Source of the DNA: Armigeres subalbatus
Lineage: Eukaryota; Arthropoda; Insecta; Diptera; Culicidae
Length of the DNA stretch: 64,000 bases
NCBI RefSeq assembly: GCF_024139115.2
Contig: NC_085140.1
Location: 232,812,371 to 232,876,370 of the forward strand
Direction of reading: 5' to 3'
The notes below the pieces were generated by a model. That model did not search any database. It was not told the origin of the DNA and worked only from the letters and a program-made list of their open reading frames with translations. The position numbers and the translations under genes were made by a program. Positions 37,146 through 59,745 of the stretch are shown here, one piece after another. Each line of letters begins with the position of its first letter. The first letter of the stretch is position 1.

Positions 37146-37151
37146 TCCACG

Positions 37152-37223
37152 TGTCTTGGAGGGACTCGAACCCTCAACCTCCTACTCTCTAGATAGGCGT
37201 GATAACCCCTACACAACAAGACC
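37152..37223 (-). tRNA. tRNA-like sequence (anticodon AGA), probably pseudo or SINE head
   Basis: 72 nt fold as a tRNA: acceptor GGTCTTG/CAAGACA with one mismatch, D stem GTG/CAC, anticodon stem CCTAT/GTAGG, loop CTAGAGA (anticodon AGA), T arm GAGGG-TTCGAGT-CCCTC. The short variable loop does not fit a tRNA-Ser, which should have a long one. The A box is weak. Probably a tRNA-derived repeat. Confidence 0.35.
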
Positions 37224-44490: not shown

Positions 44491-44498
44491 CTATTTTC

Positions 44499-44696
44499 AA
44501 AAGATATTTTAGTTACTAGATAAAGATTGTCGCTTCTGTTCCCTTTGTTCTGCTGTCCGAAACATGTGTGGTACATACCTGTCAAATCGTATGGATTTTC
44601 CTTCTTTGACATTTAGCTCCCCTATCCTCGCCAGCAAAAGATGTTCCGGACAGCGACGACAGCGACAATCTTTATCTAGTAACTAAAATATCTTTT
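44499..44696. mobile_element. MITE-2, copy 1
   Basis: 198 bp with perfect TIRs of about 36 bp starting AAAAGATATTTTAGTTACTA. 8-bp TSD with one change: CTATTTTC (44,491-44,498) and CTGTTTTC (44,697-44,704). Almost identical to copy 2 at 59,392-59,589 in the same orientation. Confidence 0.85.
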
Positions 44697-49226: not shown

Positions 49227-49231
49227 GAGGG
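49227..49231. repeat. TSD of LTR element (left)
   Basis: GAGGG, identical to 57,868-57,872. Confidence 0.85.
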
Positions 49232-49649
49232 TGTCGGGTTTTTTTCTTTTCTCACAAGCAAAACACGAATTGCAATATTAAATGCATTTTATATTTCACA
49301 TATTTTTTCAATTTTTTCTGTTTTTCTTCTTTTTTTTTGTTTACATTTTTCACTCCGTTCTCTATCACTATCGTCACATAACTGACTCTCTTTTGCCACC
49401 TCCACGATGTCAACGAATCTGTCGCTCCGCTCAGAAACCTCTTGTTTCTCTGTCGTGTCTTTCGGAGCTCTACACTCAAATAAATTCATAAACGCTTTCT
49501 ATATATTAATTATTTCTTAAATTGTATCTTTACGCGCGTGACTGGCGCTTTCATTATTATTTCTTTTTTTAACTGATAACTACGAATAAGCTAAGTTGCT
49601 GTATTATTATACTGAACTGAATTACTATATTATTATACTATTCTCTACA
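49232..49649 (-). repeat. 3' LTR (418 bp)
   Basis: Plus-strand reading TGTCGGGTTTTTTTC...CTATTCTCTACA. Nearly identical to 57,448-57,867; visible differences are a T-run length, CACGATG/CACTATG and TCTGTCGTG/TCTGACGTG. AT-rich at the end that is the minus-strand start. Confidence 0.9.
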
Positions 49650-49670
49650 TCCTCCTCCTCTCCTACTCCT
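49650..49670 (-). promoter_or_regulatory. Polypurine tract
   Basis: Minus strand AGGAGTAGGAGAGGAGGAGG followed by A and then the LTR: an unbroken purine stretch except one T, touching the 3' LTR as required for plus-strand priming. Confidence 0.85.
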
Positions 49671-50029
49671 AATCTTTATATTATATTAACATACAAATAA
49701 TATCAACCCTGAATTGTTCATTACATTGTTCCGTAATATAGCCGGCAGAATTTGAAGCTCTGGAAAAATAAGAAACAGTCAACATTCAGCTAATCAAATT
49801 AATGATTTGGAACGAAACTTACCTACGATCTGAAAAAAACATTTATTAATAATGTGATAATTCTAAACTTCGTTGACTAATAACAAGATGAGAATTTTTC
49901 AGGTTAAATAATATCTTACTTACAATTAAATTTTATCATAAAAAATAAATGGAGAGATCCAAGCATTTCGTTTCATTTTTTCTAACTAAATAATGGCAAA
50001 CGCTAATCTTGGCAATGCAATCATGTATA

Positions 50030-53000
50030 GAGCTCACAAGGCTTCAGCACATCAAACCTGCATCAAAATCAGAAGACTAACAAAAATCTCCTTTACATCT
50101 GATACTCTATATGTTCGTCCTCTACTGTACCAGGCTCCAGAACATCAATCCTGCATCAAAGTCAGAAAACTATCAAAAATATTCACCACATCTCATACTC
50201 TATATGTTCTATCTCTATACGCAAAGCAACTACTGATCTTGGTCATGCCATCATGGATAGAGCTTACCAAGCTCTAGAACATCAATCCTGCATCAAAATC
50301 AGAAAATCATCAAAAATCTTCTACACATCTCATACACTATATGTACTATCTCTATACGCAAAGCAACCACTGATCTTGGTCATACAATCATGGATAGAGC
50401 TTATCAGTCTCCATAACATCAATCCTGCATCAAAATCAGAAAATTATCAAAAATCTTTCGACATCTGATACTCAATAGGTTTTTTCTCTACTCTACCAGT
50501 CTCCAGAACATCAATCCTGTGCATCAAAGTCAGAAAACTATCAAAAATCTTCTCCACATCTCATATTCTATATGTTCTATCTCTATACGCAAAGCAACCA
50601 CTGATTATGGTCATGCAATCATGGATAGAGCTTACCAGGCTCCAGAACATCAATCCTGCATCAAAATCAGAAAACTATGAAAAATCTTCTCCACATCTCA
50701 TACTCTATATGTTCTATCTCTATACGCAAAGCATTCACTGATTTTGGTCATACTATCATGGATAGAACTTACCAGGCTCCAGAACACCAATCCTGCATCA
50801 AAACCAGAAAATTATCCAAAATCTTCTGCACATCTGATACTCTATATGTTCGTCCTCTACTGTACCAGGCTCCAGAACATCAATCCTGCATCGAAGTCAG
50901 AAAACTATCAAAAATATTCACCACATCTCATACTCTATATGTTCTATCTCTATACGCAAAGCAACTACTGATCTTGGTCATGCAATCATGGATAGAGCTT
51001 ACCAGGCTCCAGAACAACAATCCTGCATCAAAATCAGAAAAATATCAAAATTCTTTCGACACCTGATACTCAATAGGTACTTTCTCTACTCTACCAGGCT
51101 CCAGAACATCAATCCTGCATAAAAATCAGAAAACTATGAAAAATCTTCATCACATCTCATACTCTATATGTTCTATCTCTATACGCAAAGCATTCACTGA
51201 TTTTGGTCATACTATCATGGATAGAGTTTACCAGGCTCCAGAACACCAATCCGGCATCAAAACCAGAAAATTATCCAAAATCTTCTGCACATCTGATACT
51301 CTATATGTTCGTCCTCTACTGTACCAGGGTCCAGAACATCAATCCTGCATCAAAGTCAGAAAACCATCAAAAATCTTCTCTACATCTCATACTTTATATG
51401 TACTATCTCTATACGCACAGCAACCACTGATCTTGTTCATACAATCATGGATAGAGCTTATCAGTCTCCAGAACACTAATCCTGCATCAAAATCAGAAAA
51501 ATATCAAAAATATTTCGACATCTGATACTCAATAGGTACTTCCTCTACTCTACCAGGCTCCAGAACATCAATCCTGCATCAAAATCAGAAAACTATGAAA
51601 AATCTCTACTCTATATGTTCTATCTCTATACGCAAAGCAACCACTGATCTTGGTCATGCAATCATGGATAGAGCTTACCAGGCTCCAGAACATCAATTCT
51701 GCATCAAAATCAGAAAAATATAAAAAAAATCTTTCGACATCTGATACTCAATAGGTACTTTCTCTACTCTACAAGTCTCCAGAACATCAATCCTGCATCA
51801 AAGTCAGAAAACTATAAAAAATCTTCTCCACATCTCATACTCTATATGTTCTATCTCTATACGCAAAGCAACCACTGATCTTGGTCATGCAATCATGGAT
51901 AGAGCTTACCAGGCTCCAGAACACCAATCCTGCATCAAAATCAGAAAAATATCAAAAATCTTTCAACACCTGATACTCAATAGGTACTTTCTCTACTCTA
52001 CCAGTCTCCAGAACATCAATCCTGCATCAAAATCAGAAAACTATGAAAAATCTTCTCCACAACTCATACTCTATATGTTCTATCTCTATACGCAAAGCAA
52101 CCACTGATCTTGGTCATGCAATCATGGATAGAGCTTACCAGGCTCCAGAACATCAATCCTGCATCAAAATCAGAAAACTATGAAAAATCTTCTCCACATC
52201 TCATACTCTATATGTTCTATCTCTATACGCAAAGCATTCACTGATTTTGGTCATACTATCATGGATAGAACTTACCAGGCTCCAGAACACCAATCCTGCA
52301 TCAAAACCAGAAAATTATCCAAAATCTTCTGCACATCTGATACTCTATATGTTCGTCCTCTACTGTACCAGGCTCCAGAACATCAATCCTGCATCGAAGT
52401 CAGAAAACTATCAAAAATATTCACCACATCTCATACTCTATATGTTCTATCTCTATACACAGCTGATCTTGTTCATGCAATCAGGGGTAGAACTTACCAG
52501 GCACCAGAACAACAATCCTGCATCAAAATCAGAAAATATCAAAATTCTTTCGACACCTGATACTCAATAGGTACTTTCTCTACTCTACCAGGCTCCAGAA
52601 CATCAATCCTGCATAAAAATCAGAAAACTATGAAAAATCTTCATCACATCTCATACTCTATATGTTCTATCTCTATACGCAAAGCATTCACTGATTTTGG
52701 TCATACTATCATGGATAGAGTTTACCAGGCTCCAGAACACCAATCCGGCATCAAAACCAGAAAATTATCCAAAATCTTCTGCACATCTGATACTCTATAT
52801 GTTCGTCCTCTACTGTACCAGGGTCCAGAACATCAATCCTGCATCAAAGTCAGAAAACTATCAAAAATCTTCACCACATCTCATACTCTATATGTTCTAT
52901 CTCTATACGCAAAGCAACCACTGATCTTGGTCATGCAATCATGGATAGAGCTTACCAGGCTCCAGAACATCAATCCTGCATCAAAATCAGAAAAATATCA

Positions 53001-54115
53001 ATATTCTTTCGACACCTGATACTCAATAGGTACTTTCTCTACTCTACCAGGCTCCAGAACATCAATCCTGCATCAAAATCAGAAAACTATGAAAAATCTT
53101 CTCCACATCTCATACTCTATATGTTCTATCTCTATACGCAAAGCAACCACTGATCTTGGTCATGCAATCATGGATAGAGCTTACCAGGCTCCAGAACACC
53201 AATCCTGCATCAAAATCAGAAAAATATCAAAAATCTTTCAACACCTGATACTCAATAGGTACTTTCTCTACTCTACCAGTCTCCAGAACATCAATCCTGC
53301 ATCAAAATCAGAAAACTATGAAAAATCTTCATCACATCTCATACTCTATATGTTCTATCTCTATACGCAAAGCATTCACTGATTTTGGTCATACTATCAT
53401 GGATAGAGTTTACCAGGCTCCAGAACACCAATCCTGCATCAAAACCAGAAAATTATCAAAAATCTTCTGCACATCTGATACTCTATATGTTCGTCCTCTA
53501 CTGTACCAGGCTCCAGAACATCAATCCTGCATCAAAGTCAGAAAACTATCAAAAATATTCACCACATCTCATACTCTATATGTTCTATCTCTATACGCAA
53601 AACAACAACTGATCTTGGTCATGCAATCATGGATAGAGCTTACCAGGCTCCAGAACACCAATCATGCATCAAAATCAGAAAAATATCAAAAATCTTTCGA
53701 CACCTGATACTCAATAGGTACTTTCTCTACTCTATCAGGCTCCAGAACATCAATCCTGCATCAAAATCAGAAAACTATGAAAAATCTTCACCACATCTCA
53801 TACTCTATATGTTCTATCTCTATACGCAAAGCAACCACTGATCTTGGTCATGCAATCATGGATAGAGCTCACCAGGCTCCAGAACATCAATCCTGCATCA
53901 AAATCAGAAAAATATCAAAAATCTTTCGACACCTGATACTCAATAGGTACTTTCTCTACTCTACCAGGCTCCAGAACATCAATCCTGCATCAAAATCAGA
54001 AAACTATGAAAAATCTCATACTCTATATGTTCTGTCTCTATACGCAAAGCAACCACTGATCTTGGTCATACATTCATGGATAGAGCTTACCAGGTTCTAA
54101 AACAATAATCCTGCT
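50030..54115 (-). repeat. Satellite 1: alternating 137-bp and 92-bp units
   Basis: About 35 units begin at CCAG(G/T)CTCCAGAACA and continue ATCAATCCTGCATCAAA. Long units (137 bp) carry an extra part with ATCTCTATACGCAAAGCA and GATCTTGGTCATGCAATCAT; short units (92 bp) end TCTCTACTCTA or CCTCTACTGTA. Long plus short gives a 229-bp dimer (for example 53,047, 53,184, 53,276), and larger blocks repeat at 459 bp (50,677 to 51,136; 53,318 to 53,777). Long overlapping frames with no stops are by-products of the repetition. Confidence 0.92.
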
Positions 54116-54164
54116 ACAAAACCAGAAAAAAAATCTTTTCCACGTCTTAGGTTTTCTGCAACTT

Positions 54165-56530
54165 ATCCAACTGAACGCAGAAGGCATCAATGACGCACCA
54201 CCCCGATCGAGGATTGAATTTTCTCGCAACTGATCCAACCGGATCAAACGTTCAAAAAAACATTTGTGAAACACCAACCCGATCGAGGATTGGATTTTCT
54301 CTCAACTGATCCAACCAAATCAAACGTTCACAAGACATTTGTGACGCACCAATCCAATCGAAGATCAGATTTTCTCTTAACTGACCCAACCGGATCGAAC
54401 GTTCACTTGAATGCAGAAGGCATCAATGACGCACCAACCCGATCGAGGATTGGATTTTCTCTCAACAGATCCAACCGGATCAAACGTTCACAAGACATTT
54501 GTGACGCACCAACCCGATCGAGGATTGGATTTTCTCTTAACTGATCCAATCGGATCGAACGTTCACTTGAATGCACAAGGCAACAATGACGCACCAACCC
54601 GATCGAGGATTGGATTTTCCTTCAACTGATCCAAACGGATCAAACGTTCACTAGACATTTGTGACGCACCAACCCGATCGAGGATTGGATTTTCGCTCAA
54701 CTGATCCAACCGGATCAAATGTTCCCTTGAATGCAGAAGGCATCAATGACGCACCAACCCGATCGAGGATTGGATTTGCTCTTAACTGATCCAACCGGAT
54801 CGAACGTTCACTTGAATGCAGAAGGCATCAATGACGCACCAACCCGATCGAGGATTGGACTTGCTCTCAACTGATCCAACCGGATCGAACGTTCACTTGA
54901 ATGCAGAAGACATCAATGACGCACCAACCCGATCGAGGATTGGATTTTCTCTCAACTGATCCAACCGGATCAAACGTTCACAACACATTTGTGACGCACC
55001 AACCCGATCGAGGATTGATTTGCTCTCAACTGATCCAACCGGATCGAACGTTCACTTGAATGCAGAAGGCATCAATGACGCACCAACCCGATCGAGGATT
55101 GGATTTTCTCTCAACTGATCCAACCGGATCAAACGTTCACAACACATTTGTGACGCACCAACCCGATCGAGGATTGGATTTGCTCTCAACTGATCCAACC
55201 GGATCAAACGTTCACAACACATTTGTGACGCACCAACCCGATCGAGGATTGGATTTGCTCTCAACTGATCCAACCGGATCGAACGTTCACTTGAATGCAG
55301 AAGGCATCAATGACGCACCAACCCGATCGAGGATTGGATTTTCTCTCAACTGATCCAACCGGATCGAACGTTCACTTGAATGCAGAAGGCATCAATGACG
55401 CACCAACCCGATCGAGGATTGGATTTTCTCTCAACTGATCCAACCGGATCAAACGTTCACAACACATTTGTGACGCACCAACCCGATCGAGGATTGGATT
55501 TGCTCTCAACTGATCCAACCGGATCAAACGTTCACAAGACATTTGTGACGCACCAACCCGATCGAGGATTGGATTTGCTCTCAACTGATCCAACCGGATC
55601 GAACGTTCACTTGAATGCAGAAGGCATCAATGACGCACCAACCCGATCGAGGATTGGATTTTCTCTCAACTGATCCAACCGGATCGAACGTTCACTTGAA
55701 TGCAGAAGGCACCAATGACGCACCAACCCGATCGAGGATTGGATTTTCTCTCAACTGATCCAACCGGATCAAACGTTCACAACACATTTGTGACGCACCA
55801 ACCCGATCGAGGATTGGATTTGCTCTCAACTGATCCAACCGGATCAAACGTTCACAACACATTTGTGACGCACCAACCCGATCGAGGATTGGACTTGCTC
55901 TCAACAGATCCAACCGGATCAAACGTTCACTTGAATGCAGAAGGCATCAATGACGCACCAACCCGATCGAGGATTGGATTTTCTCTCAACTGATCCAACC
56001 GGATCGAACGTTCACTTGAATGCAGAAGGCATCAATGACGCACCAACCCGATCGAGGATTGGATTTTCTCTCAACTGATCCAACCGGATCAAACGTTCAC
56101 AAGACATTTGTGACGCACCAACCCGATCGAGGATTGGATTTTCTCTCAACTGATCCAACCGGATCAAACGTTCACAAGACATTTGTGACGCACCAACCCG
56201 ATCGAGGATTGGATTTTCTCTCAACTGATCCAACCGGATCAAACGTTCACTTGAATGCAGAAGGCATCAATGACGCACCAACCCGATCGAGGATTGGATT
56301 TTCTCTCAACTGATCCAACCGGATCAAACGTTCACTTGAATGCAGAAGGCATCAATGACGCACCAACCCGATCGAGGATTGGATTTTCTCTCAACTGATT
56401 CAACCGGATCAAACGTTCACAATACATTTGTGACGCACCAACCCGATCGAGGATTGGATTTGCTCTCAACTGATCCAACCGGATCAAACGTTCACTTGAA
56501 TGCAGAAGGCATCAATGACGCACCATTCCG
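54165..56530 (-). repeat. Satellite 2: 75/85-bp units, 320-bp higher-order repeat
   Basis: Units begin GACGCACCAACCCGATCGAG and contain CAACTGATCCAACCGGATC. Type A (75 bp) ends CACAAGACATTTGT; type B (85 bp) ends CTTGAATGCAGAAGGCATCAAT. From 55,077 to 56,357 the order A-A-B-B repeats exactly four times (75+75+85+85 = 320; starts 55,077, 55,397, 55,717, 56,037). The left part (54,165-55,000) is less regular. It shares no sequence with satellite 1. Confidence 0.95.
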
Positions 56531-56534
56531 TTCA

Positions 56535-57421
56535 AGGATTTTGATCGATTATATCTGCAATACATTTACCACACTCTGTATTGTTCGACGAAAAAAATGT
56601 ATAGCAAAATCTAAATTATGTATTGTTACGATACTTAACAACCCGTATATTGTCAGATTCTCTGGATGTGATACACTGCACGGCTTTTGTTATGTTCCCA
56701 AATGAGTGCATAAAATGCATAAAACTTCACGCGGCGAATGACTGTCGAAAGGTACGGCCGTGTCAAACCATACATCGCAAAGCTATTCACCCATAAGAAT
56801 CAAGTAAACTGGGTGCAAAAAAGCGCACCTGTACCTTTCCTGAAGGGTACGCCGCGTGCAATTTTGAGAAAATCAGACAATACTCTATTGCGAAAGCTAT
56901 ATTTACAGTTCATTACATAGTTCATAACACCACATTCTAATTTATTTCTATTATTGTCTTTACAATATATTCTATAACAATTTTATTGCTATATCATTCA
57001 AAATTGGGTAGTGCTACAATTAAATGTATTGTTTTTATTTTTTTTATTTTCGGGAATTCACAATGTGCTTTTTTATTGTTAATGTTAAGATTGATTTGAA
57101 AAAAATCATATTTTATTTTGCTCATAGTTCGGTTCCATTACAATAACATTCTCAAACAGCCCTGTGTTGTTAGAACTATAACAACATCTCCAACACCCCT
57201 GTATTAATCGTCTGCACATCAACTGACCCCGGCATCATTTTATTTTTCATCACCATTAACGAAAGCAGAATCCGGAAAACATAGAAAATAAAGTAACTTA
57301 CTTGAATGAGGCAACATCGAAAATAACATCAAAGCACGTCTTTCGTGCGTCAGTCGAAGAAATAAAAAAATGACCACCGAGCGGAAACACGTTCCATAGA
57401 AAACACTTGCCGTTCAGGGAG
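56535..57421 (-). other. Leader region of the LTR element
   Basis: Unique, AT-rich sequence between satellite 2 and the primer-binding site. Contains GGTACGGCCGTGTC and CCTGAAGGGTACGCCGC near 56,750-56,850. No gag frame. Confidence 0.5.
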
Positions 57422-57446
57422 CGTAGATTCACTACCGACTTGGCCA
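57422..57446 (-). promoter_or_regulatory. Primer-binding site, tRNA-Ser-like
   Basis: One base after the LTR the minus strand reads TGGCCAAGTCGGTAGTGAAT, then CTACG. The plus-strand equivalent CTACCGACTTGGCCA resembles the 3' end of insect tRNA-Ser (CTACCGACTGCGCCA), the primer used by 17.6/297-type gypsy elements. The likeness extends further into the GGGAGCGTAG part of the tRNA's variable/T region (57,418-57,427). Confidence 0.65.
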
Positions 57447-57447
57447 T

Positions 57448-57867
57448 TGTCGGGTTTTTTTCTTTTCTCACAAGCAAAACACGAATTGCAATATTAAATG
57501 CATTTTATATTTCACATATTTTTTCAATTTTTTCTGTTTTTCTTCTTTTTTTTTTTGTTTACATTTTTCACTCCGTTCTCTATCACTATCGTCACATAAC
57601 TGACTCTCTTTTGCCACCTCCACTATGTCAACGAATCTGTCGCTCCGCTCAGAAACCTCTTGTTTCTCTGACGTGTCTTTCGGAGCTCTACACTCAAATA
57701 AATTCATAAACGCTTTCTATATATTAATTATTTCTTAAATTGTATCTTTACGCGCGTGACTGGCGCTTTCATTATTATTTCTTTTTTTAACTGATAACTA
57801 CGAATAAGCTAAGTTGCTGTATTATTATACTGAACTGAATTACTATATTATTATACTATTCTCTACA
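57448..57867 (-). repeat. 5' LTR (420 bp)
   Basis: Nearly identical to the LTR at 49,232-49,649. Transcription of the element should start in this LTR and run towards lower coordinates. Confidence 0.9.
57468..57707 (-). CDS. Small charged ORF within the LTR
   Basis: 79 codons beginning MNLFECRAPKDTSEKQEVSE, rich in Lys/Glu/Ser, ending in an AT-rich hydrophobic tail. The other LTR has the same start (49,289-49,489; T for S once), but a length change in the T-run alters the end. The first 50 residues are thus shared between the LTRs. It resembles no known LTR protein and may be chance. Confidence 0.25.
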   Translation of the reverse strand: MNLFECRAPKDTSEKQEVSERSDRFVDIVEVAKESQLCDDSDRERSEKCKQKKKEEKQKKLKKYVKYKMHLILQFVFCL

Positions 57868-57872
57868 GAGGG

Positions 57873-59377: not shown

Positions 59378-59745
59378 TATAAGAACTATGCAAAAGATAT
59401 TTTAGTTACTAGATAAAGATTGTCGCTTCGGTTCCCTTTGTTCTCCTGTCCGAAACATGTGTGGTACATACCTGTCAAATCGTATGGATTTTCCTTCTTT
59501 GACATTTAGCTCCCCTATCCTCGCCAGCAAAAGATGTTCCGGACAGCGACGACAGCGACAATCTTTATCTAGTAACTAAAATATCTTTTAACTATGCATA
59601 TGCGAAATCGTTAGATTCATACACAAAAAATGTAAGCTCTCATACAAATATTGTTAGCAAAATTTGCAACATTGTAAGGTCTCATACAATATTTGTGTAA
59701 TAATCTAGTAATTTCGCATTTGCCCAGTTCTTATACAGATTTTGG
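59375..59745. mobile_element. MITE-4 copy interrupted by MITE-2
   Basis: The left remnant TGTATAAGAACTATGC joins, across MITE-2, to ATATGCGAAATCGTTAGATTC and ends CCCAGTTCTTATACAGATTTTG, matching 31,258-31,442. The outer left end is missing at the RTE junction. Confidence 0.65.
59392..59589. mobile_element. MITE-2, copy 2
   Basis: 198 bp, nearly identical to 44,499-44,696. Perfect 8-bp TSD AACTATGC at 59,384-59,391 and 59,590-59,597, lying within MITE-4. Confidence 0.9.

Follow-up and report, generated by a model that had tools for sequence, protein, structure and literature searches.

Results

The 64,000-nucleotide stretch of Armigeres subalbatus DNA analysed here (the window; G000:C2:232812371-232876370 in the 1.336-Gb genome) contains at positions 49232-57867 a complete long terminal repeat (LTR) retrotransposon of 8,636 bp, all parts of which lie on the minus strand except its target-site duplications (TSDs) and an insert in its leader, to which no strand is assigned. 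The 5' LTR (420 bp, 57448-57867) and the 3' LTR (418 bp, 49232-49649), recognised by comparison with each other and by a genome search, have paired TG...CA ends; over 418 aligned sites they show 2 substitutions, and a T-run differs by an indel of 2 bases. The TSD GAGGG stands immediately outside the 3' LTR on the left (49227-49231) and immediately outside the 5' LTR on the right (57868-57872). On the minus strand the LTR ends in ...CCCGACA and is followed by a single A and then by TGGCCAAGTCGGTAG at the position of a primer binding site (PBS, 57429-57446), one base inward of the 5' LTR. A polypurine tract (PPT) of 21 bases, AGGAGTAGGAGAGGAGGAGGA, adjoins the 3' LTR (49650-49670) and aligns with purine tracts of sister copies. 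By position, both signals are where a minus-strand LTR element needs them. The element has TGTAGAGA...CCGACA ends and, besides the purine tract, the motif ATGGCCAAGTCGG.

The interior consists of a 5' leader (56541-57447), two unrelated tandem arrays and a 3' tail (49650-50038), of which the approximately 180 bases nearest to the LTR can be aligned to other subfamilies. Array B (54191-56540) is made of 75/85-bp units with a higher-order repeat of 320 bp, and array A (50039-54130) of units of about 92/137 bp with higher-order periods of 229/459 bp, as defined by tandem repeat analysis; the spacer between them (54131-54190) is also found in the sister copy L051, at 97% identity. The arrays together measure 6,442 bp, or 74.6% of the element. 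The leader carries a splice-donor-like GTAAGT (57296-57301) and the tail a putative GT-AG intron of 63 nt (49760-49822), GTAAGT...TTTTTCCAG. Judged by frame length, with no protein-family scan of the frames, there is no gag-pol-sized frame between the LTRs: the longest stop-to-stop stretch is 84 codons in the sense direction versus 152 in the antisense direction, and the 20 longest stretches are all antisense and mostly within the arrays. The first-pass annotation, made from the letters of the window, had described near-identical LTRs of about 419 bp, the GAGGG duplication, the PBS, the 21-base PPT, the minus orientation and about 6.5 kb of satellite in two arrays with no gag-pol; all of this was reproduced, at the same places.

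Several other identities were considered and rejected. In the window copy a frame of 49 codons starts from the ATG directly behind the LTR, but the leaders of other copies show stops and frame shifts, the reading frame not being preserved among copies, so that a coding leader is not retained. With hammerhead- or retrozyme-type motifs of Rfam in view, the window gave two tRNA matches at gathering scores and none inside the element. The best window matches to the PIWI-interacting RNA satellite sequences tapiR1 and tapiR2 (as given in the part of PMC9781653 available to us) have 10 or 11 mismatches in 29-30 positions. No exact match for five short element patterns was found in viral and prokaryotic contig collections, and the only match of array sequence in literature text was an Acinetobacter paper.

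With the window LTR as a query, 40 matches were found in the source genome. Twelve regions were fetched, plus both ends of one further copy (L018/L024), and nine copies were read at both ends, their limits being fixed from the LTR termini and not from the TSD. Each of the nine is flanked by a perfect 5-bp TSD, and all nine are different: in element orientation CCCTC for the window, ATACC for L051, GTCAG for L053, CCAAG for L058, TACAG for L059, CATGA for L060, TCTAT for L061, CAGTT for L062 and CCATA for L018/L024. None of the 12 fetched loci shows a match to the 1-kb flanks of the window element. Not included in this set are L057, a decayed fragment, L063, of which a single end was read, and over a dozen other loci that match the leader, the PBS or an array and whose two ends were not both read. 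By LTR identity, the window, L051 and L053 form subfamily I (97-99%), L058-L061 a second group (93-99%), and L062 stands by itself; identity between groups is 68-72%. The LTR pairs within seven copies differ by Kimura two-parameter (K2P) distances of 0.0024-0.0196, that of the window being 0.0048. The first-pass annotation had named further complete copies, each with satellites inside and a TSD of its own, as the proof of mobility, and LTRs restricted to this site, or never associated elsewhere with the satellites, as its refutation; the nine copies provide the former and exclude the latter.

Four single LTRs were also found. The TSD is perfect in L052 (GTCAG) and in L056 (CGGGC), the flanks of the latter being locally repeated; in L054 it agrees at 4 of 5 positions, and L055 lacks its 5' end. 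L052 and the full copy L053 represent one insertion, with the same TSD, in flanks of which pieces are 98.5-99.2% identical and which lie about 400 kb apart in the assembly; this duplication may be real, or may be an assembly artefact or uncollapsed haplotype. L054 and L055 likewise sit in duplicated flanks. As the same flanks hold a single LTR in L052 and a full element in L053, recombination between LTRs can delete the satellites.

The arrays are carried as blocks. Both occur in the same order in eight of the nine copies, including subfamilies at about 70% LTR identity: leader, B, A and tail follow each other in the window, L051, L053, L059, L060, L061 and L062, and both ends of L018/L024 agree with this order. 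L058 (LTR K2P 0.010) has array A only, without array B. L063, read from its 5' end, shows array B then A, and two places without a recognised LTR keep B beside A (C3:150499002/150500375 and C3:402399699/402400378). The interiors of the other copies are mostly arrays, as seen without an ORF (open reading frame) list and with the middle of L018/L024 unread, and the array span is 2.6-8.0 kb in eight copies. The whole of the window array B aligns to L051 in one piece (2,411 bp, 98.3%), and leader and tail are 98% identical between these two copies, equal to array B; L051 has about 0.7 kb of extra B on the leader side, and its array A is partly rearranged. Within the window, units diverge by about 5% in B and 13% in A, far more than the LTR pair, and the arrays are therefore older than the insertion. 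The insert in the leader (56647-56883), which resembles a miniature inverted-repeat transposable element (MITE), is contained in the stretch of leader that L051 and L053 match, and has therefore travelled with the element too. These observations, all drawn from sequence comparison, provide good support for the view that the arrays travel inside the element, and hence for satellite transport by retrotransposition; the first-pass proposal that satellite arrays are moved by an LTR element is supported by these other full copies, with their arrays, their different TSDs and a colinear array B.

Two inserts were noted in passing. The MITE-like insert has imperfect terminal inverted repeats by eye, and among 40 of its 1,763 genome-wide candidates that were scored, most are 88-89% identical to it. 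In L060 (5045-7618 in element orientation) an insert that splits array A has a tandem repeat of its own, 167 bp x 5.7.

The RNA INTERMEDIATE is an intron loss. The GTAAGT...CCAG stretch is kept in seven of the eight tails that can be aligned (window, L051, L053 and L058-L061), its length ranging from 62 nt in L060 to 63 nt in the window. In the eighth, L024, a 62-nt GT-AG counterpart is gone to the base, leaving ...TTTCGTTG|AGCTTC.... The LTRs of this copy differ at 2 of 412 sites, and its arrays lie next to the tail (A) and next to the leader (B). The simplest reading of this exact loss is that the inserted copy was made from a spliced RNA and had the arrays in it, which points, from a single case, to an RNA intermediate. 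The donor sequence GTAAGTT is present in all 12 aligned leaders.

The PBS is kept in the same 12 leaders; these were chosen by their PBS pattern, and its conservation among them is therefore not independent. A 20-base pattern spanning the junction of LTR and PBS has 108 matches in the genome at no more than one mismatch versus 10 for a reversed control, a count in which the one-mismatch sites come partly from another repeat without visible LTR context (one sampled). There are 32 exact places, and 17 of them are at loci also reached by the LTR, leader or array searches; when three others were sampled about 3 kb inward, two contained a diverged array A, and the third had no array and no long ORF. 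We presume that the PBS is complementary to tRNA-Ser, on the basis of a comparison by eye with a fly tRNA-Ser that gave 2 mismatches; priming by tRNA-Ser would follow from this resemblance. The frequent GACAATGGCCAAGTCGGTAC sites were considered as a trace of a helper and rejected on one sampled site, where L064 shows no LTR end by eye and L065, 2 kb inward, has open stretches of at most 87 codons, no family scan being made. At L064 (G000:C1:24680640-24681140) and at other one-mismatch places, the GACAATGGCCAAGTCGGTA of the element occurs near GCGCTCCC in a stretch that resembles the PBS region and has no recognised LTR end; this stretch and the PBS region of the element may have a common, possibly tRNA-derived, origin. 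The window also contains, at 37151-37223, a tRNA-Ser-like gene of just 73 nt, with scant space for a long variable arm, which is perhaps itself tRNA-derived.

Discussion

In this work we describe a gene-less LTR element whose copies carry the same two satellite arrays to separate genomic sites. The anatomy of the element, its separate insertions, the block travel of the arrays and, in one copy, the mark of an RNA step are best explained if the window element is a recent member of a mosquito family of non-autonomous LTR retrotransposons that moves its arrays as blocks, and we regard this explanation, including the recent insertion of the window copy, as very probable; the family may still be active. 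An RNA driven by the LTR, in which we would place the promoter, would comprise leader, array B, array A and tail, would be reverse-transcribed from a tRNA primer, and the whole copy would be inserted by proteins supplied in trans. Each insertion would thus plant about 2.5-8 kb of satellite; the arrays would lengthen and shorten between copies and could be removed by LTR-LTR recombination. The helper acting in trans would perhaps belong to the Mag lineage of Ty3/gypsy elements, since priming by tRNA-Ser and 5-bp TSDs fit this lineage, a likeness that we take as a lead.

Several observations weigh against this explanation. No gag-pol with the LTR of the element was found; the 150 scored of 6,494 PF05380 candidates carry no weight in either direction, gypsy-type families not being scanned. 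The match of the PBS to tRNA-Ser is imperfect. The intron loss is seen in one copy, known for about 3.4 kb at each end with a middle of about 10 kb unread, and L022 and L062, which have no alignable tail, are uninformative on the intron. The second LTR of L062 is recognised solely through its outer end and its TSD. Finally, when array places were noted, one or few per locus, with 40 of 345 candidates scored for B and 38 of 683 for A, a family LTR, leader or PBS match lay within 15 kb of 19 of the 23 listed places of array A and of 19 of the 30 of array B; the other 11 of the 30 B places have no such mark nearby, and some may be free satellite. Several diverged B matches (76%), between 24326 and 33347 of G000:C1918 and between 279462651 and 279467102 of G000:C3, have no family LTR, leader or PBS within 15 kb, and may be free satellite or an unseen subfamily.

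The relationship between the arrays and the element is less simple than transport. Between subfamilies I and II, whose LTRs are about 70% identical, the majority units differ at only 2 of 84 sites for B and at 16 of 136 for A. Single B units are about 91% alike between subfamilies versus about 95% within subfamily I, and the contrast between B and LTRs is therefore not due to averaging alone. Array B is perhaps under constraint, and as its conservation exceeds that of the LTRs, the arrays may constitute the element itself and not its passenger. This observation gives some weight to the idea that the arrays are selected, B being a repeated cis module (for packaging, for dimerisation, or for protein binding as in an insulator like that of gypsy, whose array is far shorter than A or B) and A a second one, which we judge a serious possibility somewhat short of even. 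Against it, L058 inserted without array B, unless B was lost afterwards. In addition, the B variant TTGAGCG of L062 is the majority in L018 and, at the sites concerned, is carried by about half of the units of group II; the groups are therefore not sharply distinct in B, so that exchange by template switching is possible and could keep B alike. Nor does RNA structure help much, as two B units fold just mildly better than shuffles (z of -1.7 and -2.2) and two A units do not (0.6 and -0.9). The stronger proposal, in which a gene-less retro-parasite has the satellites as its working body and B is a selected multi-copy cis-signal, near-fixed while the LTRs diverged by 30%, is tentative. If it were true, a satellite would be maintained and amplified through selection on retrotransposition, and not by unequal crossing-over alone. 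The first-pass annotation had called the arrays cargo and had offered their transport as the explanation of how such arrays spread: the arrays do move with the element, but both terms are doubtful, given the conservation of B and the B places without a family mark.

The arrays might alternatively be part of a removable intron, the donor of the leader being joined to acceptors in array A or in the tail; spliced RNA would then be free of satellite, and only unspliced RNA would be transposed. The donor found in every aligned leader agrees with this scheme, as do array A units in which TGATGCAG|G and G|GTAAG occur together (31 in L059, 27 in L058, 21 in L061 and 10 in the window). However, the same strict pattern is absent from L062, the units of L067 have no such signals by eye, and the RNA behind L024 had lost the tail intron yet kept the arrays; as a scheme read from motifs, it is less likely than not. 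A mini-exon reading of array A is weak. Growth or acquisition of the arrays after insertion at the window site is very improbable and was rejected: arrays do change, as their lengths vary between sister copies (2.4 versus 3.1 kb for B, 4.2 versus 3.4 kb for A), but L051, which lies on another large contig, has a colinear array B, the same two arrays stand in the same order in other subfamilies, and divergence among the units greatly exceeds that between the paired LTRs. Least probable of all is an origin of the copies by segmental duplication of a single locus with arrays, the LTRs being incidental, an account that could apply to L052/L053 and L054/L055 in their duplicated flanks and is contradicted for the nine copies by their different perfect TSDs, by the unmatched window flanks (other flanks were compared only for these two pairs) and by the precise intron loss in L024.

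LTR elements with internal tandem repeats are known from plants, as in Tat/Ogre. As in the dispersed plant LTR elements described in the available part of Vondrak et al. (2019, PMC7004042), the arrays here lie inside the element; unlike here, the plant arrays are short within elements and expand mainly at primary constrictions. Closer to the present case, Marsano et al. (2012, PMC3286476; cited here and below from the part available to us) described 38 gene-less elements of Culex that contain tandem repeats, without finding a master copy, and proposed a passive spread of repeats by retrotransposition. These cqUNK elements of Culex quinquefasciatus are alike in having LTRs, a PBS (several of Ser type), a PPT, mostly 5-bp TSDs and noncoding tandem repeats between the LTRs, and set against Table 2 of PMC3286476 the window element shows every feature of the type (LTR, PBS, PPT, TSD, tandem repeats, no genes), a likeness by description and not by sequence. 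The cqUNK repeats are described as not family-specific, whereas here the same two arrays persist across diverged subfamilies, and neither transfer of an array between copies nor intron loss is reported in that part of the paper. Compared by description, the Mag-lineage Ty3/gypsy elements cqgypsy_24, _25 and _66 share 5-bp TSDs and tandem repeats in the 5' untranslated region, the position of array B, with a Ser PBS in cqgypsy_24 and _66; unlike the window element, they contain ORFs, and their LTRs are shorter, at 198-304 bp. According to the same source, large retrotransposon derivatives (LARD) and terminal-repeat retrotransposons in miniature (TRIM) have LTRs, PBS and PPT without genes, as here, where the interior is mainly two satellite arrays, and the 5' untranslated insulator array of Drosophila gypsy is a tandem block behind the leader, as here. 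No Aedes counterpart was found in the titles and abstract openings listed from the open-licence PMC literature, from which we do not claim absence, and the part of PMC3259105, on Aedes transposons, available to us held nothing relevant.

Gene-less LTR elements with tandem repeats are thus already known, from Culex; what is new here is the evidence of block transfer through RNA and the retention of the arrays across diverged subfamilies. This provides direct evidence, in one family, for the 2012 conjecture of passive retrotransposition of tandem repeats in mosquitoes. As its copies are dated and it includes subfamilies, solo LTRs and a marker of intron loss, the family offers a clean system in which to ask if retroelements seed dispersed satellites and if selection acts on the satellite units.

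Other features of the window

Two repeats of about 200 bp, at 44498-44696 and 59391-59589, are 99% identical and have ends that are near-exact inverted copies, as expected of a MITE pair. At 482-2830 lies an open frame of 782 amino acids that by eye, with no family scan, resembles the endonuclease and reverse transcriptase of a non-LTR retrotransposon.

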